A stretch of DNA of 64,000 bases, taken from contig NZ_AP022603.1 of NCBI RefSeq assembly GCF_010726955.1, positions 2,170,001 through 2,234,000 on the forward strand, read 5' to 3'. A model generated the notes under the pieces. The model did no database searches. It was not told where the DNA came from and saw only the letters and a program-made list of their open reading frames with translations. Each line of letters opens with the position of its first letter. Position 1 is the first letter of the stretch. Origin of the DNA: Mycolicibacterium fallax (lineage in GTDB: Bacteria > Actinomycetota > Actinomycetes > Mycobacteriales > Mycobacteriaceae). Made by a program: the position numbers and the translations under genes. This document shows, piece by piece, positions 33,613-44,404 of this stretch.

Positions 33613-34497
33613 TCACCGCACGCAGCGGAACCCGATGTGGGTGGTCGCGCTGTCCTGGGACTGCGGGGAACGGGCGGCCGGCCGGTAGCGGTGGCAGTAC
33701 TCCGGGGCGCACAGGTGCGAGCCGCCCTTGAGCACCTGGTTGACCGACGGATCGGGCTCGCGCCCCGGCGTGCAGCAGCCGCTGCGCTGTCCCGGCCGAT
33801 GCCCGCCGCGGAACCGGGTCGTGGTCCATTCCCAGACGTTGCCGATCATGTCCACCAGCCCGAAGCCGTTGGCCGGAAAGGTGCCCACCGGCGAGCTGCC
33901 GACCCAGCCCAGCGCCCCGTCGTTGCGGTACGGAAACGCGCCGCGCCAGGTGTTGGCCATCGGCCGTCCGCCCGGGGCGGGGTCCTCGCCCCACGGGTAG
34001 GTCGATGTCGTCCCGGCCCGGGCGGCGTACTCCCACTCGGCCTCGGTCGGCAGCCGCCGGCCGGCCCACCCGGCGTAGGCGGCGGCATCGGGGTAGGCGA
34101 TCTGGACGACGGGATGGTCGCCGCGGTCGGCGATCGAACTGTCCGGCCCGAACGGGCGGCGCCAGCAGGCCCCCGGCACCCAGGCCCACCACTGCCGCCA
34201 GTCGGTCAGGTCCACCGGTCCCGGCGTCGGGGTGAAGACCAGCGCCCCGGGCGCCAGGTCCGCGGCGGCGACGCCGGGATAGTCGGCGGGATCCATCGGG
34301 CGTTCGGCGACGGTGCGGTAGCCGGTGTCGGCGACGAACCGGGCGAACTGCGCGTTGGTCACCGGATGGCGTTCGACGGCCAGCGGACCGACCGATACGG
34401 TGTGGACCGGCATCTCCTCGGGATAGAAGTCCGCGGAACCCAGGGTGACGGTGCCGCCGGGCAGCTCGACGAGGTCGGTGAGCGGCGCCGTGACCAT
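33613..34497 (-). CDS. Formylglycine-generating enzyme (sulfatase maturase)
   Basis: FGE oxidises the sulfatase active-site cysteine to formylglycine. The 294-residue protein belongs to the FGE-sulfatase family, with ATADTGYRTVAER-type N-terminal segments, VGSSPVGTFPANGFGLVDMI, and the catalytic cysteines 263 and 268 in GSHLCAPEYCHRYR. These match Cys272/Cys277 of the Streptomyces enzyme. The arylsulfatase gene 0.4 kb away on the same strand is the obvious substrate. M. tuberculosis has the same pair between rpsQ and rplN. Confidence 0.92.
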   Translation of the reverse strand: MVTAPLTDLVELPGGTVTLGSADFYPEEMPVHTVSVGPLAVERHPVTNAQFARFVADTGYRTVAERPMDPADYPGVAAADLAPGALVFTPTPGPVDLTDWRQWWAWVPGACWRRPFGPDSSIADRGDHPVVQIAYPDAAAYAGWAGRRLPTEAEWEYAARAGTTSTYPWGEDPAPGGRPMANTWRGAFPYRNDGALGWVGSSPVGTFPANGFGLVDMIGNVWEWTTTRFRGGHRPGQRSGCCTPGREPDPSVNQVLKGGSHLCAPEYCHRYRPAARSPQSQDSATTHIGFRCVR

Positions 34498-34918: not shown

Positions 34919-37267
34919 TCAGTCCCGCTCGAACGCGGCGGCCAGCTCGGCCTCGGCGTCCAGGTAGGGCGTCCCGGAGATGTCCACGGTCACCGTCGCG
35001 ATGGTCGCGCCGGTCAGTGGGTTGGGCGCGCCGTAGCTCGCCGACACCGCCTGCCCGGAGTTGCGCCCCACCCTCGCGCTGACCCCACCGAGTCCGAAGG
35101 TGCCCGGATGCGTCCGGACCTCGTCGCGGGTGCCGACCACGGCGTCGTCGACGTAGAGCGTGAGCACCCCGACCGGGGTGTGGCTGCCCTCGGCGGTGCC
35201 GGTGCGCTCGAACCGGGCACCCAGCACATGCCGGCCCGACGGCAGCGGCGCCTCGGCGCGGACCAGCTGCTCGTCGGCGCCCATGAAGTTGTAGACGAAC
35301 GACAGTCGGCCGTCGTCGACGAACAGCACGTAGCCGCCGTGCCCGCAGCCGTGTTTGAAGATCACCCCGTCCGGCTCGGGCCCCAGCTCGACCTCGGCGA
35401 GCACCGAGAACGACTGCCCGCGCAGTTCCGGCGCCGCCCCCATGCCGACGTCGGCGGTGCCCGGGTAGAAGGTGAACCGCTCGCGCTCCCCCGCCACGCC
35501 GGGCCGGGCCCGGCCGAAGATCTCCGCGACGCTCAGGTCCGCCAGCGGCAGGCCGTGGTACTTCGCCGCCTCGGCGAACCACAGCTGCTGCATCTCGGCG
35601 AGCTTGTCGGGCTGCTCGGCGGCCAGGTCGCGGCATTGGCTGCGGTCGGCGTCGATGTGGAACAGTTCCCAGCGGTCGTCCTCGAAATGGCCCCAGCCGC
35701 TGGGGGTGGCCGCGTGCACGGTGTTGGCGAACCAGCCGCGATGCCAGATCCCGCGGGTGCCGAGCATGCTGTAGAACTGGGTCTCCTTGCCGGTCGGCAG
35801 CTCCGGATCGCGCAGCGCCGCGGCGAAGCTGGTGCCCTCCAGCGGCCGCTGCGGGATGCCGCGCACGGTGGCCGGCGGCGTGATGCCGAGCAGCTCGTAC
35901 ACCGTCGGGGTGACGTCGGCGACGCTGATGTAGTTGTCCCGGAGTTCCCCGGCCGCGCCGATCCCGGCCGGCCAGGAGATGATCGCGGTGTCGGCGATGC
36001 CGCCCTCGTGGCTGGCGTAGCGCTTGAACAGCTTGTAGGGCGTGTTGAACGCCATCGCCCAGCCGATCGGGTAGTGCCCGTAGGTCGACGGGCTGCCCAG
36101 CTCGTCGTAGAACCGCAGGCTTTCGGCGACGGTGTCGATGTAGCCGTTGAAGAACTTGACCTCGTTGACCGAGCCGTTCGGACCGCCCTCGCCGCTGGCC
36201 CCGTTGTCGGAGATGACGACGATGATGGTGTTGTCCAGCTGACCGGACTCCTCCAGGTAGTCCAGGATCCGGCCGATCTGCGCATCGGTGTAGGACAGGA
36301 ACCCAGCGAACACCTCCGCCATCCGGGCGAACAGCCGCCGCTCGTCGTCGGACAGTTCGTCCCACGGCCGGACGGTGTCCTGGACCGGCCAGGGCTGCCC
36401 GGCCGGCCCGGTGACCTCGGCGTACGGGTTCATCGGGGAGAGCTCGGTGTCCGGCGGGACGACGCCGAGCCGCTTCTGGTTCTCCAGCACGATCTCCCGG
36501 TACGCCTCATAGCCCATGTCGAAGCGCCCGGCGTAGCGGTCGGCCCACTCGCGCGACACCTGGTGCGGGGCGTGCCCGGCGCCTGGGCAGACGTAGGAGA
36601 ACCACGGCTTGTCCGGCGCGATCACCTTGGCGTCGCGGATGAACTCGATGGTCTTGTCGGCGAGGTCCTTGGACAGGTGGTAGCCCTGCTCCGGGGTGGC
36701 CGGCGGGTCGACGGGATGGTTGTCGTAGACCAGCTCCGGGTACCACTGGTCGGTTTCCCCGCCCATGAACCCGTAGAACCGGTCGAAGCCGCGCGAGCAC
36801 GGCCAGTGCCGCCGGGTGGCGGCCAGGTTGGATTCCTCCAGCGGGGCCAGGTGCCATTTCCCGACGGCGTAGGTGCTCCAGCCGCGTTCGGCCAGCACCT
36901 CCGAGAGCAGCGCGGTCTCGGCCGGGATTCGCCCGTTGCTGTTCGGGAAGCCCTCGGTGAATTCCTCGACGGTGGCCATCCCGACCGACGTGGCGTTGCG
37001 CCCGGTCAGCAGCGAGGCCCGGGTCGGCGAGCACAGCGCGGTGGTGTGGAACTGGGTCAGCCGCACCCCGGCATCGGCGATCCGGGTCATGTTCGGCATT
37101 TCGACCAGGCCGCCGAAGCAGTCCCAGGTGGCGATCCCGGTGTCATCCCAGACCAGGTACAGCACGTTCGGGGCGCCGTCGGGGGCGTTCGGCGCGACGT
37201 AGGGCGCCCAGTCCGGTTCGGAGTCCCGGATGTCCAGGGCGATCTTCCCGTTGAATTCTGCTGCCAT
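34919..37267 (-). CDS. atsA: Type I arylsulfatase
   Basis: The 782-residue sulfatase carries CSPTRASLLTGR with Cys79, the residue converted to formylglycine, after an N-terminal PNVLYLVWDDTG calcium-binding segment (about 33-44). Other sulfatase motifs are AVGKWHLAP and VVISDNGASGEGG. I start at the ATG at 37267 (MAAEFNGKIALD) behind GAGG; an open frame 14 codons longer lacks support. No signal peptide is evident, so the enzyme is probably cytoplasmic or non-Sec. It ends 12 bases from the convergent secreted-protein gene. Confidence 0.93.
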   Translation of the reverse strand: MAAEFNGKIALDIRDSEPDWAPYVAPNAPDGAPNVLYLVWDDTGIATWDCFGGLVEMPNMTRIADAGVRLTQFHTTALCSPTRASLLTGRNATSVGMATVEEFTEGFPNSNGRIPAETALLSEVLAERGWSTYAVGKWHLAPLEESNLAATRRHWPCSRGFDRFYGFMGGETDQWYPELVYDNHPVDPPATPEQGYHLSKDLADKTIEFIRDAKVIAPDKPWFSYVCPGAGHAPHQVSREWADRYAGRFDMGYEAYREIVLENQKRLGVVPPDTELSPMNPYAEVTGPAGQPWPVQDTVRPWDELSDDERRLFARMAEVFAGFLSYTDAQIGRILDYLEESGQLDNTIIVVISDNGASGEGGPNGSVNEVKFFNGYIDTVAESLRFYDELGSPSTYGHYPIGWAMAFNTPYKLFKRYASHEGGIADTAIISWPAGIGAAGELRDNYISVADVTPTVYELLGITPPATVRGIPQRPLEGTSFAAALRDPELPTGKETQFYSMLGTRGIWHRGWFANTVHAATPSGWGHFEDDRWELFHIDADRSQCRDLAAEQPDKLAEMQQLWFAEAAKYHGLPLADLSVAEIFGRARPGVAGERERFTFYPGTADVGMGAAPELRGQSFSVLAEVELGPEPDGVIFKHGCGHGGYVLFVDDGRLSFVYNFMGADEQLVRAEAPLPSGRHVLGARFERTGTAEGSHTPVGVLTLYVDDAVVGTRDEVRTHPGTFGLGGVSARVGRNSGQAVSASYGAPNPLTGATIATVTVDISGTPYLDAEAELAAAFERD

Positions 37268-37382
37268 GGCGGTTCCTCGAGGTCCGGCCGCGGCCGCTCC
37301 GCGGGGCATACACCGACGACACTAATCACCGCGGGCCCCCCCGACCACCGGTTTCCGCGGCACTCGTTTGCCACCGGGGCGG

Positions 37383-39068
37383 CTATTCCCGATCGCCGGC
37401 CGACGGTTCGAACACCCGGTACAGCCGCCAGTTCGGCTGACTGTCGCCGTCGTTGGCGATCTCCAATTCCAGGGTCGCCACCTCGGCGCCGGTCTCGTAC
37501 AGGGTTGGGTACCGCTGGTTCAGGGCGTCCGAGGCGCCGCGTCCGGTGTCCGGGACGGCAAGCAGGTACCGCACATCGCCGCCGATCGGATCGTTGAGCA
37601 GCTGCACGAAATCCGGATCGGACGGGATGACGAAGGTCCGGGGCTTGCGCGAGGCGGCGACCACGGCGAAACCGTAGACCGTGTCGGTGATGACCGAGCT
37701 TTCCGGCAGGTTCAGCCGATCCAGATACTCCGCGATCTGCCGCTCGGTGGAAAACGTCGCCGCGATCCGCCGCTCGACGGTCTTGCGGGCACTGGTGTCG
37801 TCGGGGTCCGGGCGCAGCACCGCACCCAGCGCGTATTCCTGCGGCGCGTACTTCGGCAGGCTCATCCCCCACCCGGCGACCGGCAGTCCCACCGCCAACA
37901 GCACCGCGACCACCGGGTAACCGGCGCGGCCGGCCCGGGTGGTCGCGACGGTGGCCGGCGGCGGGGCGTGCCGACCGGGTCGCTTGGCGGGCAGCAGCGG
38001 CCCCTCGGGTACCGCCAGCATGGCCAGGCAGGCCGCCAGTGGCAGCGCCGCGATGTAGAACCGCAGGAATCCGAAGGTGGAACCGGTGGCGTAGGAGTGG
38101 GCCTGAAACACCAGCACCGCGCCGAACATCACCGTCGGCACCAGCAGCACCGTCCAGTTCGGCCGGCGCCACCGGACCCAGCCCGCCCACACCGCGATCG
38201 GGATGACGGTGGGCGCCAGCAGCAGTACCGACACCGCCGCGAACAACAGCCCCGACCCGAACCCGCCCACCTGCGAGCCGCCGGATTGCGCCAGGATCGC
38301 CGCGTTGCCGTAGCGGGAGCTGAACTGTGCGAAGGCGTCCCCGGTGATCAGCCAACTCGCGGCCGCCCAGCCCAGAAACGACCCCGCCCCGGGCCCGGCC
38401 ACCAGGATCAGATCCAGCAGCGCCCGCCGGATCCTCGGCGGCGCCGGCGCCCGCAGGTAGGTGGTGGCGAAGACCAGCGCCCCCGCACCGGCCACCGCGC
38501 CGGCGGCGTCGTAGCGGGTCAGGTAGGCCAGCCCCATCGCGATGAAACCGGCACTGATCAGGTGGTGGACGTCGTCGTCGACCATCCACAGAATCAGCCG
38601 GCGGACCGCCCAGATGCTGAAGAACAGGAACGGGGCTTCGCTCATGCCGTTGGAGCCGTAGAAAAGGATCATCGGGTTCAGGGCGAACATCGCGGTGATG
38701 GCCAGTCGGTAGCGCCGCGGCAGTCCCCGGTCGGTTCCAATGCCCAGGATCTGTACCGCCGCGCCGGCCATGAACAGCGCCGAGACGATGCTGCCGGCCA
38801 GCGCCCGGCCGGTCAGCTCCGGCAGCACCTGCATGAACGGCATCGCCGGCAGCTCGATCAGCGCGGTCAGCGGGGTGAAGACGAAGCCGACCGCGGCCAC
38901 GTGCGGGCTGCGGCTGTACAGCACGCTCTCGGCCGCGGCCACCCGGGACAGCGCGTCACCGAGGATGAAGCCGTTGCACACCTGCAACCAGTAGCCGACC
39001 CCCAGGTACAGCGCGAACAGCAGGCAATAGACCAGCACCGCCAGCCGGCGATCCGAGAGCCGGCTCAC
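37383..39068 (-). CDS. Polytopic GT-C-like glycosyltransferase
   Basis: The 561-residue protein has about ten membrane segments, with an acidic motif GDALSRV in the first loop (about residues 37-43), as in lipid-linked sugar glycosyltransferases (GT-C fold, GT39/ArnT-like), and a C-terminal soluble part. It is the last gene of a four-gene operon and overlaps the GT2 gene by four bases. It probably adds a lipid-linked sugar to a product of the synthase, but substrate and acceptor are unknown. Confidence 0.65.
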   Translation of the reverse strand: MSRLSDRRLAVLVYCLLFALYLGVGYWLQVCNGFILGDALSRVAAAESVLYSRSPHVAAVGFVFTPLTALIELPAMPFMQVLPELTGRALAGSIVSALFMAGAAVQILGIGTDRGLPRRYRLAITAMFALNPMILFYGSNGMSEAPFLFFSIWAVRRLILWMVDDDVHHLISAGFIAMGLAYLTRYDAAGAVAGAGALVFATTYLRAPAPPRIRRALLDLILVAGPGAGSFLGWAAASWLITGDAFAQFSSRYGNAAILAQSGGSQVGGFGSGLLFAAVSVLLLAPTVIPIAVWAGWVRWRRPNWTVLLVPTVMFGAVLVFQAHSYATGSTFGFLRFYIAALPLAACLAMLAVPEGPLLPAKRPGRHAPPPATVATTRAGRAGYPVVAVLLAVGLPVAGWGMSLPKYAPQEYALGAVLRPDPDDTSARKTVERRIAATFSTERQIAEYLDRLNLPESSVITDTVYGFAVVAASRKPRTFVIPSDPDFVQLLNDPIGGDVRYLLAVPDTGRGASDALNQRYPTLYETGAEVATLELEIANDGDSQPNWRLYRVFEPSAGDRE

Positions 39069-40510
39069 GGCGGCGGTTCCGCGGGCCGCTGGGCCAGCCC
39101 GTGAAAGGTCTTCTCCCAGTACGACGGGTTGCGGATCAGCTGGTAGGTGCCCTTCGCCGCGGCCACGCTCATCATCAGCCAGAACGCCGGCACGGTGAGC
39201 GCCGGGACCAGCAGGTCGGGCCGGTCGTCCTCACGCAGCGCGATGACGTTCATGTACAGCGTCGCGGCATTGCCCAGCACCAGCGCGACCAGCGCGGGAA
39301 AGTAGATGAACCACGGGAAGATGGACCCGACGACGGCCGGCTGACCCAGGAACCACACCATGGTGATGAACCAGAACACCAGGTTGAGCACCGCGATGAG
39401 CGGCGTGCCGGCCAGCACCAGGTTGAACCGCAGAAAGCTGCGCGGCCCCAGCGTGCGGTACAGCTGAAGCGGCTGGCGAATGTTCACCAGCCAGGTCTGC
39501 AGGTAGCCCTTGTACCAGCGGGAGCGCTGCCGGATCCAGTTGATCGGATCGCTGTTGGCCTCCTCCAGCGTGGACGAATCCAGCACGGCGGTGTGATAGC
39601 CGGACGCGTCGATGCGCAGGCCGAGGTCAGCGTCCTCGGTGACGTTGAACGGATCCCAGGACCCGATCTCGTCAAGCACCTCGCGCCGCAGATGGTTGGA
39701 GGTGCCGCCCAGCGGGATCGGCGAACCGCTGCTCATCATGCCCGGCAGCAGGTAGCCGAACCACAGACCGTATTCGGCGGTGAACCAGCCGGTCAGGAGG
39801 TTCTGCCCGCCGTTGTGGTAGACCAGCTTGGCCTGCACGCAGGCCACCTCATCGGGGAGCTGCGCGAACGCCGCAACCACCCGGCGCAGTTGCAGCGGCT
39901 CGGGCAGATCCTCGGCGTCGTAGATGGTGACGATCTCGCCGGTGGCGAAGAACAGCCCGTAGTTGCAGGCCTTCGGTTTGGTCCGGGGATCGGCCGGCGG
40001 CACCTCCAGGATGGTGATGACCTCGGAGGACGCGCAGCCCTGCGCCGCGGCGATGGTGACCGCGTCGTCGGCCTCCAGCAACAGCAGCACCTGCAGCTTG
40101 TCGACCGGATAGTCCAGCGCGCCCATCGCGGCGATCAGGTCGCCGACCACCTCGGGCTCGTCGTAGGCCGGTACCAAGATGGTGTACGGCGGCAGCTCGT
40201 CGTCGGGGATCGCGCGGGCCTGCTCGTCGGAGATCAAGATCGGCCGGGACTTCAGGCCCTGCCGGAAGATCAACACCCGGTCGGTCATGGTGAGCACGTA
40301 ACCCAGCGTGCACAGCCCGATCAGGAAGATCGCGGTGCCCATCGGGCGCCAGACGGCGAAGCCGCCGAGGACCGCCAACAGCGAGTAGAGCGCCGGTTTC
40401 TGCCAGCCCCAGATCGAGACCGACGACGAGCGGATCGGATGGTCCTCGCGCAGCCCGTTGATCGCCCGGTCCAGCGCCCACTCCGGGTCGACGCCCGGCG
40501 GCGTGCTCAT
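39065..40510 (-). CDS. Family 2 processive glycosyltransferase, BcsA-like
   Basis: The 481-residue protein has an N-terminal membrane pair (about 35-80), a cytoplasmic GT-A catalytic domain and a C-terminal membrane group (about 355-455). Catalytic motifs are complete: DAED at 198-201, TED at 291-293 and QRSRW at 328-332, the signature of cellulose, hyaluronan and chitin-type synthases. There is no C-terminal PilZ domain, so unlike BcsA it should not be gated by cyclic di-GMP. A BcsB-like gene lies two genes upstream in the same operon. The polymer made is unknown. Confidence 0.85.
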   Translation of the reverse strand: MSTPPGVDPEWALDRAINGLREDHPIRSSSVSIWGWQKPALYSLLAVLGGFAVWRPMGTAIFLIGLCTLGYVLTMTDRVLIFRQGLKSRPILISDEQARAIPDDELPPYTILVPAYDEPEVVGDLIAAMGALDYPVDKLQVLLLLEADDAVTIAAAQGCASSEVITILEVPPADPRTKPKACNYGLFFATGEIVTIYDAEDLPEPLQLRRVVAAFAQLPDEVACVQAKLVYHNGGQNLLTGWFTAEYGLWFGYLLPGMMSSGSPIPLGGTSNHLRREVLDEIGSWDPFNVTEDADLGLRIDASGYHTAVLDSSTLEEANSDPINWIRQRSRWYKGYLQTWLVNIRQPLQLYRTLGPRSFLRFNLVLAGTPLIAVLNLVFWFITMVWFLGQPAVVGSIFPWFIYFPALVALVLGNAATLYMNVIALREDDRPDLLVPALTVPAFWLMMSVAAAKGTYQLIRNPSYWEKTFHGLAQRPAEPPP

Positions 40511-42039
40511 CGGGACGGCCCCGCCCCGGCGAACTGCCGGTCAACCACCCCACGGGCGAACTCCAGCACCAGGTCGTCGTCCTTGAGGTTGGGTTGGTCG
40601 TCGGTGAGCGCGGCGTTCCCGCGGAACAGCAGGATCAGGATGGTGTTGAGGGTCTGTACCAGCCCGCCGGTCGGTTCCGGGAACGGCGCCTTGTCCTCAT
40701 GGTTGTCCACCGCGACCACCATCATCCGCTGCGACTGGGTGCCGTTGGTCCAGGTCCAGGTGAGTTCCTTCCAAGTGACCAGCAGCCGGTCGTCGACCGC
40801 GCTGCCCAGGCTGCCGGTCACCCCGTGCCCGAGATCGACGGTGCGCGACGCGCCGAACCGCAGTTCGCTGGTGTCGTAGATGACGACCGGCGGGAACACC
40901 TTGAGCCGGTGCGGGAACTCGGTGGTGAGGGTGTCGAGCACCAACGTGCGGGGCCGGGCGAACTTGTCGAATCGGTGGTCGCCGGTGACCGCGGCGAGCT
41001 TCTGCCGCTGCAGCAGCGCGTCGCGGCCGAACACCCGGCTCACCCACGGGTAGTCGGCGGTGGCGGCCACCCGCCAGCCGGGCGGCGGGGCGGGCGGCCC
41101 GTCGAGCATCCGCGCGTCAACATGCCGGGGCACGCCGGTCTCGGGCTCGGGCAGCGGCACCAGCGACAGCCCGACGGCGACGGCGGCGATCACCGGCACC
41201 ACCTTCCACACCTGGTTGGTCGACAGCGGTTCCATCTTGCGGTCGAACAGTCTCTTGGGCGCGCCGCGCCGTGACAGCAGGTACATCGCCAGGCCCGTCC
41301 CGGCGATCGCCGTCAGCGCCGGGAGCAGCTGGTAGACGACGATCGGGACGTTCGGGGCGATGAGCGCCAGCAACCCCAGCACACCCAGCCCGACCGCCCA
41401 GGCCACTGCGGCGCCGATCACCCCGCGGCGGGCGGTGCGACCGACCGCGATGCCGGCGGCCGCCCCGGCGATCGCCAGGGTGCCGACGGCCGCCGCGCCG
41501 GAGCCGCCGCCGGCCAGGATGACCAGCAGGTAGTACCACAGCGGGAAGACCGCGCCCATCAGGACCCAGACCGCGGTGAACCGGATCACCGGCCGCAGCC
41601 CGAACAGCAGGGTCGCCGCGCACACCAGGAAAACCCACATCGCCAGCAGATCCAGCTGCAGCAGCCGGTAGTACTGCTGGTAGCGGGCCAGCAGCACCGA
41701 ATGCAGCAGGACGCTGAGCACCAGGCCCATGCCGCCGACGATGAGGTCGGTCTGCCGGTCGTGGATCGGCAACTCGGTGCGCTGCCGGCGGGCCACCCCG
41801 AGCGCCGCGAGGGCACCGGCCGGCGGCAACAGCCATACGTAACTGATCAGGCTGCCGCCGGAGGTGGCCAGCACCAGGTCGGCGAGGCTGCGGTGGAAGG
41901 CGACGACGGTCAGCACCGCGATCAGCGCCCAGCGCAGCACCAGACGCGCGGAGGGATGCCAGTGCTCGAGCTCCCAGATCCGGGTCCGGGTCCGGGTCAC
42001 CGTCGGCGCGGCGGCGACCGTCTCAGTCACCGGCGGCAC
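40507..42039 (-). CDS. Polytopic membrane protein with periplasmic C-terminal domain
   Basis: The 510-residue protein has about eight membrane segments (residues about 35-280) and a soluble C-terminal part of about 220 residues. Its layout, with a WLLPPAGALAALGV segment followed by a LFGLRPVIRF-type segment, loosely recalls exosortases with an EpsI-type tail, but the expected catalytic Cys/Arg/His set is not visible, so I do not name it so. The GTG start overlaps the BcsB-like stop by 17 bases, and its stop overlaps the GT2 gene. Its role is probably in assembly or export of the same polymer. Confidence 0.6.
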   Translation of the reverse strand: MPPVTETVAAAPTVTRTRTRIWELEHWHPSARLVLRWALIAVLTVVAFHRSLADLVLATSGGSLISYVWLLPPAGALAALGVARRQRTELPIHDRQTDLIVGGMGLVLSVLLHSVLLARYQQYYRLLQLDLLAMWVFLVCAATLLFGLRPVIRFTAVWVLMGAVFPLWYYLLVILAGGGSGAAAVGTLAIAGAAAGIAVGRTARRGVIGAAVAWAVGLGVLGLLALIAPNVPIVVYQLLPALTAIAGTGLAMYLLSRRGAPKRLFDRKMEPLSTNQVWKVVPVIAAVAVGLSLVPLPEPETGVPRHVDARMLDGPPAPPPGWRVAATADYPWVSRVFGRDALLQRQKLAAVTGDHRFDKFARPRTLVLDTLTTEFPHRLKVFPPVVIYDTSELRFGASRTVDLGHGVTGSLGSAVDDRLLVTWKELTWTWTNGTQSQRMMVVAVDNHEDKAPFPEPTGGLVQTLNTILILLFRGNAALTDDQPNLKDDDLVLEFARGVVDRQFAGAGPSR

Positions 42040-43978
42040 GCCGCCGCAACAGCAGCACCGCGGCCCCGACCAGCGCGGCCCCGGCCAGCACGCCCGTCAG
42101 GGTCCAGGCCCAGGTCGGCATGGTCGGGCCCGCGGCGGCGACGGGGACGGCGATTTCCGGCACCAGCACCGGGTCGCGGCCCGGCACCGACAGCAGCGCC
42201 CGCCCGTCCAGGTTAGACCAGCGGCGCTCGTCGGCGGCCAGCCAGTCCAGCAGCCTGTCGAGTTCGGCGGGCGCCCCGTTGGACGTCGCGACCAGCACCG
42301 TACGCCCGCGCTGGTACACCACCTCCAGCGCACCGAACCGCAGCGCCGGATCCAGCGTCAGGGTGGTCGACTCTCCGGTGCTGTCGGTCACGTTGATGGT
42401 CGTCGGCACGGTGTCCGGGGCCCGCAGCGGCAGCGGGATCTCCTCGAAGGTCCAGTCGCCGGGGGCGATCACCACCGCCGGGAGCGCCGAGGCCACCGCG
42501 TCGGCGGTGTCCACCACCTGCGGATCCAACGGCAGTGCACTCAGCCGCTGCAGGCCCACCACCACGCCGATCGCCCGGTCGATGTCGCCGCGGCTGCTGC
42601 TTTCGATACCGATCTGGGTTTTCGGCATCAGGGCCTGGGGCAACGACTGGAAACCCTCCGGGATCGGCGGCGCGGCCGGGGTGCTGGTGACCACACTCTC
42701 CCCGTCGATCATCAGGGTGACCGGCTGGAACTCACCGCAGCGCCCGGTATTGCCGGAGATGCCCACCTGGACGGTGAGGTTCATGTACCGCTTGAGCAGG
42801 CGGTCGGGCACGTCGACCCACCGGTCGATGACGCCGCCCGGTTCGGCGGGCCAGCGTGCCAGCGTCTCACCGGCGAGCGCGACCACCACCTGGCCACCGA
42901 TGTCGCCGGGCAGCGGGGTGTAGGACCCGATCAGGTGCACCCGCACCGATTTGACCGATCGGCCCAGCCTGGTCTGGTCCAGCGCGACGCCGACCATCGG
43001 GTTCAGCGCGCTGGCGTTGACTCCGGGCTGGCCCAGCTGCCGGATGGTGGTGGTGTTCGCGGGCAGCTGGGCCGACCGATGCAGCGGTCCGGCCACGGCC
43101 GCCGAACTCAGCGCGAAATACAGCGTGCCCGAGGTCAGCAGCCGGGTCTGGTTGATCAGCTCGTTGCGGGGCCCCGACACCAGCAGCGCCGGCACGCCGC
43201 CGGCGCCGGGCAGCAGCGACACCCCGGTGTCGTCGCGTTCGGAGATCACGATGTGGCGTTCGAACGGTGCGGCCGGCGCCGGCGGCACCGCGCCGGGCCC
43301 CGGCAGGCCGGCCACCTCGATCGCCGGGTTCTGGTCCCCGTAGCGGGCGGCGATCGCCGCGGCGAGGTTGACCACGGCGTCGGCCTCCGCCCAGGTCGGC
43401 TCGGGCCGCACATAGAAGATCAGCTTGCGCAGCACCGGCGGCAGAAAGTCCGCGACGACGGTCGGCGGCCGCTCGGTGCCGGCGAAGGTGACGCCGATTT
43501 CGGTCAACCGCAGCGGGTTCGTCGGGTCCAGGCAGTAGCCGTCCAGCGGCAGCAGGTAGGAACGCAGCTGGACAGTCACCGCGTTCTCCCGGACCCGGGC
43601 TCCGGCCAGCGGGATCACCAGCGGCCCCGCCGGTCCGGGCGGCACCTCGACGGTGGCCAGCACCCGCTCGTCCTGCGACACCGTGATCGAGGCCGAACGG
43701 ACGTAGACCGGCAGGCCGACCGTCACGTTCAGCGACGCCGGGTCCATTCCGGCCGGCACCGGGATGGTGAGCGTAGCGGTGCCCTGCTGCCCATAGAGCG
43801 CCAGGTCGGGGGTGGAGGCGCCGAGCTCCAGCAGCCGCAGCGTCGGCGAACTCGCCAGCGCCGGTTCGGCCGGGGTGGCCTGCTCGCCGGGCTCCGCCCC
43901 GGCCGGCGGCGCACCCAGGAACGTCACGGCCACCGCGAGCAGTGCGGCGAGCAGCCGAATACCCGGAGGGAGTGTCAT
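42023..43978 (-). CDS. BcsB-like periplasmic polysaccharide-synthase subunit
   Basis: The 651-residue protein has a signal peptide (hydrophobic core about 8-26, cleavage near AGA/EP), a large periplasmic region and one C-terminal membrane segment (about 626-645) ending in RRR. The domain order fits BcsB, which guides the glucan leaving BcsA: SITVSQDERVLATVEVP and SYLLPLDGYCLDPTN in the first carbohydrate-binding-like module, then FLPPVLRKLIFYV and AVVNLAAAIAARYG in the flavodoxin-like module. It heads the operon. Confidence 0.75.
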   Translation of the reverse strand: MTLPPGIRLLAALLAVAVTFLGAPPAGAEPGEQATPAEPALASSPTLRLLELGASTPDLALYGQQGTATLTIPVPAGMDPASLNVTVGLPVYVRSASITVSQDERVLATVEVPPGPAGPLVIPLAGARVRENAVTVQLRSYLLPLDGYCLDPTNPLRLTEIGVTFAGTERPPTVVADFLPPVLRKLIFYVRPEPTWAEADAVVNLAAAIAARYGDQNPAIEVAGLPGPGAVPPAPAAPFERHIVISERDDTGVSLLPGAGGVPALLVSGPRNELINQTRLLTSGTLYFALSSAAVAGPLHRSAQLPANTTTIRQLGQPGVNASALNPMVGVALDQTRLGRSVKSVRVHLIGSYTPLPGDIGGQVVVALAGETLARWPAEPGGVIDRWVDVPDRLLKRYMNLTVQVGISGNTGRCGEFQPVTLMIDGESVVTSTPAAPPIPEGFQSLPQALMPKTQIGIESSSRGDIDRAIGVVVGLQRLSALPLDPQVVDTADAVASALPAVVIAPGDWTFEEIPLPLRAPDTVPTTINVTDSTGESTTLTLDPALRFGALEVVYQRGRTVLVATSNGAPAELDRLLDWLAADERRWSNLDGRALLSVPGRDPVLVPEIAVPVAAAGPTMPTWAWTLTGVLAGAALVGAAVLLLRRRAAGD

Positions 43979-44033: not shown

Positions 44034-44056
44034 CATTCGCGGTCCCCCCGGGACCC

Positions 44057-44084
44057 AAAAAAGCCCGGCGCGGGGCGCCGGGCT
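44057..44084 (-). terminator. Intrinsic terminator after rpsQ
   Basis: Read on the minus strand, AGCCCGGCGC-CCC-GCGCCGGGCT is a perfect ten-pair stem followed by TTTTTT. It lies 18 bases after the rpsQ stop and ends the S10 operon. The downstream polysaccharide operon therefore needs its own promoter. Confidence 0.92.
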
Positions 44085-44101
44085 CTTCTGGGTTCGCGGT
44101 C

Positions 44102-44404
44102 TTACTTGGCCTTCTCCAGGACCTCGACCAGCCGCCACCGCTTGGTGGCCGACAGCGGCCGGGTCTCCATCAGCGAGACGCGGTCGCCGATGCCGGCGTC
44201 GCCGTTCTCGTCGTGCGCCTTGACCTTCTTGGTGGTCCGGATGATCTTGCCGTAGAGCGGGTGCATCTTGCGATCCTCCAACTCGACGACGATCGTCTTC
44301 TGCATCTTGTCGCTGACCACGTAGCCGATGACCGTCTTACGACGGCCGCGCGGCTGCTCGGTGCGCGGGGTGTGGTTGGGCCCCTTGGTGCCAGTGTCTG
44401 CCAT
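44102..44404 (-). CDS. rpsQ: 30S ribosomal protein S17
   Basis: S17 binds the 5' domain of 16S rRNA. The 100-residue product has a basic N-terminal extension ([18 protein letters not shown]) before the S17 OB-fold core ([20 protein letters not shown]). The actinobacterial length is slightly more than in E. coli. It overlaps the rpmC stop by one base and ends at a strong terminator. Confidence 0.97.

Follow-up and report, generated by a model that had tools for sequence, protein, structure and literature searches.

We analyzed a 64,000-nucleotide stretch of the Mycolicibacterium fallax genome (contig NZ_AP022603.1, positions 2,170,001 to 2,234,000; hereafter the window), a genome that consists of a single contig of 4,156,821 bases. 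Within the window, four minus-strand genes (genes 1 to 4) appear to form a synthase-dependent polysaccharide system for an exported glycan, with a backbone that is most likely beta-linked and perhaps beta-1,4-mannan- or glucomannan-like; we place the probability of this reading at about 0.7. An earlier note on this DNA had inferred membrane machinery that exports a glycan. That inference is supported, and so are (i) the BcsB identity of gene 1, by predicted fold; (ii) the processive-type GT2 glycosyltransferase encoded by gene 3; and (iii) the PMT-type GT-C glycosyltransferase encoded by gene 4. The open reading frame list likewise bore out the four overlapping genes that had been described, with a span of 37383-43978 and successive overlaps of 16, 4, and 4 bp. 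In the paragraphs that follow, our own handles for loci and genomes begin with L and G, respectively.

Core genes of the operon and their conservation

A structure model was predicted for gene 1 and compared with the PDB by Foldseek. The best match had an E-value of 5e-29, the first 22 PDB rows were all BcsB, and the BcsB fold covered nearly the whole of the model; gene 1 is, by predicted fold, a BcsB protein. Hydrophobic stretches were found at residues 3-21 and 626-644, in line with the signal peptide and C-terminal anchor previously read into a BcsB-like architecture. At the level of sequence profiles the agreement was partial, as PF03170 (BcsB) was matched by 19 of 44 aligned gene 1 sequences but the window protein itself had no Pfam match. 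Sources name some of the listed gene 1 relatives BcsB, 'cellulose synthase subunit', or the like.

The motifs DD (residues 148-149), DAED (198-201), TED (291-293), and QRSRW (328-332) of gene 3 were present in the translation and invariant in 28 aligned sequences including that of the window, such that the complete set of processive-synthase motifs claimed beforehand (DAED, TED, QRSRW) was recovered; the reported lack of a PilZ domain also held, with no Pfam match to PilZ in the 481 amino acids. The nearest PDB sequence was BcsA (5ej1, E-value 8.9e-14), and the six best of eight PDB matches were cellulose synthase chains. All 28 sequences matched the NCBIfam model CelA, with the lowest E-value among all NCBIfam models, and also matched MftF, a second cellulose synthase model, PgaC/IcaA, and the XrtP-associated glycosyltransferase. 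Judged by these motifs and matches, gene 3 is a GT2 of processive type that is nearest to cellulose synthase. For gene 4, PF13231 (PMT_2, of the GT39 kind) was matched by 24 of the 28 aligned sequences (best E-value 1.3e-9), unlike the window member, which had no Pfam match. On the strength of its relatives gene 4 is assigned as a GT-C of PMT type, which agrees with the GT-C enzyme named earlier.

A search of the family (Mycobacteriaceae) detected gene 1 in 56 of 121 genomes, representing 20 of 31 genera. From 55 of these 56 genomes (the window's own being left out), 58 loci were taken and genes were scored as present by tblastn at over 80 bits. All four genes were found at 49 of the 58 loci, and at 41 they shared a strand and followed the order 1-2-3-4; chance is excluded as an explanation because the four-gene set is conserved to this extent. 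Three of the nine incomplete loci (L085-L087) carried a divergent version in the order 2-3-1-4, with gene 2 under the threshold. A divergent operon version, ordered gene 2, gene 3, gene 1, gene 4, was also seen at L212. In a sample of the genus, gene 2 was detected in 31 of 148 genomes, with 25 of these at an E-value below 1e-79. Named records carrying the genes (77 loci kept of 155 confirmed stretches, some of which coincide with the 58-locus set) included M. neoaurum, M. senegalense, M. wolinskyi, Williamsia, Rhodococcus, Gordonia, and Nocardia. The four-gene system is present in some mycobacteria and many soil relatives. Across the class, gene 1 matched in 23 of 246 genomes. Five genomes outside the family had gene 1 matches with E-values below 1e-30 (L203-L207); these carried a BcsB-like gene, with a distant GT2 beside it in three, and genes 2 and 4 were not seen at an E-value of 1e-4 in the five fetched stretches.

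A GH5-like hydrolase in relatives and the nature of the polymer

When neighboring genes were clustered, a protein whose N-terminus is signal-like emerged next to the operon. This apparently secreted hydrolase was found by tblastn at 44 of the 58 loci, always within 2 kb and in 42 cases within 400 bp, with gene calling alone giving 39. The earlier note had held that the usual BcsC, BcsD, and BcsZ genes are missing; this stood for the window, where Pfam found none of the three among the neighboring genes tested, but the system at large often has a hydrolase next to it, comparable to BcsZ in cellulose operons, namely the GH5-like gene at these 44 loci. The sole Pfam match of the hydrolase was to GH5 'Cellulase', below the cut-off, in two of four members tested. 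A profile of nine members matched 11 PDB sequences at an E-value of 0.01 (best 3.7e-11), ten of which carry the name mannanase or mannosidase, with the remaining one named Man5A; the nearest solved structures were endo-beta-1,4-mannanases (such as 4awe and 1qno). Two invariant glutamates (E202 and E314 of the first sequence) align with mannanase glutamates that we take to be the acid and nucleophile of GH5.

The hydrolase co-occurs with genes of the operon. In the family scan it was matched in 52 of 121 genomes, two of them only at E-values near 1e-3. All 50 genomes with a strong match (one of which, G108, matched in two pieces) have gene 1, compared with 56 of 121 overall, while six genomes have gene 1 without the hydrolase (G000, G001, G022, G029, G052, and G112). 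Within the genus the hydrolase was present in 9 of 148 genomes, all nine among the 31 with gene 2, and in each of the nine it was located on another contig or millions of bases from gene 2. Based on these sequence comparisons, the hydrolase would point to a beta-1,4-mannan-like backbone; we hold this tentatively, at somewhat less than even odds, with cellulose or another beta-glycan as the main rivals.

Several observations weigh against the synthase-dependent reading and its polymer. A glycine takes the place of the mannanase asparagine before the acid glutamate of the hydrolase. No such hydrolase was found on search of the window's own genome, and 22 of the 31 gene 2-bearing genomes of the genus are also without it; the polymer inference is therefore indirect here. 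The hypergeometric values for co-occurrence (1e-27 and 3e-7) ignore relatedness and serve only to illustrate the bias. At L040, L063, L088, and L208-L211, a BcsB gene was detected without another operon gene in the fetched stretch. In addition, gene 3 of the window has CelA as its best NCBIfam model, yet with 74.1 bits it lies far below the cut-off of 699.1.

One alternative is that the operon encodes a divergent cellulose synthase, in which the GT2 would convert UDP-glucose to a beta-1,4-glucan while gene 2 and the GT-C would play accessory roles. The rank of CelA among the models for gene 3, the cellulose synthase chains among its PDB matches, the BcsB fold, and the BcsB source names of some gene 1 relatives would all be expected of such an enzyme. 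However, the shortfall in the CelA score, the lack of a PilZ match, and the nearness of the relatives' hydrolase to mannanases speak against it, although the sub-cut-off Pfam match of that hydrolase is to the broad GH5 'Cellulase' family. We consider a cellulose synthase unlikely on balance.

Gene 2 and its probable relationship to exosortases

Gene 2 had been described as a polytopic partner. The membrane-helix character stood, and the identity can be extended to a protein that is likely exosortase-derived and without the catalytic residues. The model of gene 2 (mean predicted local distance difference test score, pLDDT, of 90) had about nine membrane helices followed by an alpha/beta domain of about 200 residues (approximately 300-505), which looks to be placed outside the membrane. 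Exosortase_EpsH (PF09721) was matched by 3 of 31 aligned gene 2 sequences (best 2.4e-7, 30.8 bits, cut-off 25.7), and the NCBIfam exosortase models XrtD and XrtC were matched by five (best 0.0097) and three (best 1.5e-4) of the 31, respectively. As a control, the PF09721 profile was searched against six-frame translations of the 121 whole family genomes (E-values up to 1), and the 44 resulting rows were compared with gene 2 frames by script (15 rows) or by contig number (the remainder). All four rows above the cut-off were gene 2, with up to 35.8 bits. Ten of the top 12 rows were gene 2; nine overlapped a gene 2 frame, and the tenth (G097) was in the same gene directly past the end of the fetched stretch. 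The other two (G080 and G081) corresponded to frames of 97 and 102 amino acids.

The likeness to exosortases (EpsH, XrtA-type) is confined to the membrane core of some orthologues, where matches covered profile positions 2-143 at most and ended at 117-143. A canonical exosortase from G307 has Cys, Arg, and His, presumably the catalytic residues, near profile positions 168, 213, and 234; unlike this enzyme, gene 2 had no match in that region. No conserved Cys column was found in gene 2: the most widely shared one reached no more than 10 of 31 sequences in one alignment and 12 of 53 in another, and 7 of 31 and 12 of 53 were without any Cys. The exosortase gene of G307 is followed directly by EpsI, an arrangement reminiscent of the core and outer domain of gene 2, but the similarity to EpsI (PF11984) was weak: 2 of 26 rows at E-values up to 1 were gene 2, none above the cut-off. 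Because the exosortase similarity ends before the catalytic residues, gene 2 seems to be a non-enzymatic exosortase derivative to which an outer domain was added, and descent from an exosortase is considered probable.

A different explanation is that gene 2 is not related to exosortases and that its weak profile matches reflect generic membrane helices. A number of results weigh in this direction. Profile-profile comparison (hhalign) against a narrow set of exosortases gave no significant score for gene 2, and the gene 2 model had no Foldseek match in the PDB at an E-value of 0.001; the PDB held no sequence relative of exosortases for comparison. The window protein had no PF09721 match in Pfam, and most members gave no PF09721 row: with one lower row (G047) included, 11 of the 44 rows were gene 2, and 51 gene 2 frames were found outside the window. 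Against this, amid the polytopic proteins of 121 six-frame genomes the exosortase profile ranked gene 2 first, and XrtD and XrtC matched it as well. Generic helices are a rather unlikely account, and exosortase descent is preferred.

Proposed mechanism, known systems, and genomic setting

In the synthase-dependent system that we favor, the GT2 of gene 3 would polymerize a sugar nucleotide on the cytosolic side of the membrane and pass the chain through its own membrane channel, and the BcsB-type protein of gene 1 would receive and guide the chain at the outer face. Gene 2, its peptidase site lost, may have been kept as a structural subunit joining the GT2 side to the outer domain, and the GT-C of gene 4 may add side-chain or terminal sugars outside the membrane from a polyprenyl-phosphate donor. 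In most relatives outside mycobacteria, a secreted GH5-like hydrolase would trim the product, a role played by BcsZ in the case of cellulose. The steps given for genes 3 and 1 apply known BcsAB biology to the matching parts; we infer the others, including complex formation, the direction of export, the roles of genes 2 and 4, and the identity of the polymer. A non-processive GT2, with genes 2 to 4 attaching short sugars to a protein or lipid at the membrane and the BcsB protein doing no more than bind them, would suit the MftF and XrtP-associated glycosyltransferase matches of all 28 gene 3 sequences and the PMT type of gene 4, but is improbable in light of the invariant QxxRW, the BcsB fold, and the linked hydrolase of endo-acting kind, all of which fit a polymer.

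The operon resembles BcsA-BcsB of E. coli and Cereibacter sphaeroides in the BcsB fold, in the D, DxD-type, TED, and QxxRW motifs of the GT2, and in the adjacency of the genes. It differs in its GT2, which has no PilZ match and a CelA score far below the cut-off, in the extra exosortase-like and GT-C genes, and in its neighbors, among which BcsC, BcsD, and BcsZ were not detected. A BcsB model also matches in B. subtilis, in a protein that we take to be YdaN of ydaJKLMN, an operon in which we know of no exosortase-like or PMT-type gene. As a Gram-positive operon type for exopolysaccharide, ydaJKLMN is similar to the present one; it is described in a passage of PMC13274460 as comprising a gene for a putative glycosyl hydrolase and three for making or secreting an exopolysaccharide. 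A point of difference is that ydaJKLMN includes a cyclic di-GMP (c-di-GMP) receptor, YdaK. The system may represent a distinct Mycobacteriaceae class in which an exosortase became a non-catalytic subunit of a GT2/BcsB synthase for a mannan-like surface polymer new to the group, an idea for which we would give slightly worse odds than a coin toss; if true, this would exemplify the conversion of an exosortase into a polymer synthase subunit.

The description of the system as unrecognised in the earlier note was partly upheld. No paper was found that deals with the four-gene system, with gene 2, or with the hydrolase, but BcsB-type source names exist, and two papers (PMC7952908 and PMC6364259) mention in passing that M. 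neoaurum and M. cosmeticum carry genes for putative components of cellulose synthase. Since M. neoaurum ATCC 25795 carries the four genes (L129, in the order 2-1-3-4), these are probably the components meant in those mentions. Passages of PMC12167362 and PMC6364259 describe the mycobacterial machinery for cellulose-like polymers as unknown or yet to be identified and state that M. tuberculosis lacks BcsA and BcsB. The operon provides a concrete candidate for such machinery in environmental mycobacteria, Rhodococcus, Gordonia, Nocardia, and Williamsia, with the hydrolase partner supplying a testable prediction for the polymer; M. tuberculosis is not accounted for by this operon alone.

The coordinates of the operon and its surroundings are listed in Table 1. 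Genes for L16 and S3 (PF00252 and PF00189 matches) are next upstream of rpsQ. The 56-base hairpin 3′ of rpsQ had a folding energy of -37.4 kcal/mol (z -6.5, with none of 200 shuffles as good) and ended with a run of six T; a consensus terminator scan reported none between rpsQ and gene 1 despite this strong hairpin. With a terminator-like hairpin after rpsQ, read-through from the ribosomal genes is improbable, and the four genes probably form an operon with a promoter of its own. The sulfatase is not counted within the conserved system; of the 58 loci, only two have a homologue, L032 and L040, and these belong to the same genus. In M. tuberculosis, rpsQ presumably adjoins a sulfatase gene without the four-gene operon between them.

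Table 1. Positions of the four genes, their neighbors, and the predicted domains of gene 1
Feature	Position	Strand	Basis
Gene 1, BcsB-type subunit, 651 amino acids	42023..43978	-	predicted fold
Gene 2, polytopic with alpha/beta domain, putative exosortase-related core, 510 amino acids	40507..42039	-	model, PF09721 matches of orthologues
Gene 3, GT2 glycosyltransferase, 481 amino acids	39065..40510	-	PF13632 1.8e-27, PF13641 1e-26
Gene 4, polytopic GT-C glycosyltransferase, PMT type, 561 amino acids	37383..39068	-	PF13231 in orthologues
rpsQ (ribosomal protein S17), upstream neighbor	44102..44404	-	PF00366 1.6e-30
Likely intrinsic terminator between rpsQ and gene 1	44050..44105	-	hairpin fold
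Sulfatase, downstream neighbor	34919..37309	-	PF00884 3.2e-62
Sulfatase-modifying (formylglycine-generating) enzyme-like gene, adjoins sulfatase	33613..34497	-	PF03781 8.6e-79
Gene 1, N-terminal hydrophobic stretch			
Gene 1, beta-sandwich	residues ~46-168		
Gene 1, alpha/beta domain	residues ~185-300		
Gene 1, second beta-sandwich	residues ~305-435		
Gene 1, second alpha/beta domain	residues ~450-610		
Gene 1, C-terminal helix	residues 622-648		

Among the loci with a BcsB gene only, L040, L208, L209, L210, and L211 are mycobacterial, and L040 and L210 occupy the rpsQ-sulfatase position as well. Several mycobacteria (L100, L102, L106, L108, L109, L110, and L112) had an additional gene 2 copy close to the operon, accompanied at L100 by an extra copy of gene 1. 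Two other families were found among the neighbors (e.g., L031:11043-12392, L121:13981-15276, and related loci), with counts in which loci of one genome may count twice: (i) an esterase-domain family (PF00756, one member tested), within 300 bp of the operon at seven loci; and (ii) a pectate-lyase-like family (one member tested), near the operon at seven loci and within 2 kb at three. Both are possible polymer-modifying enzymes.

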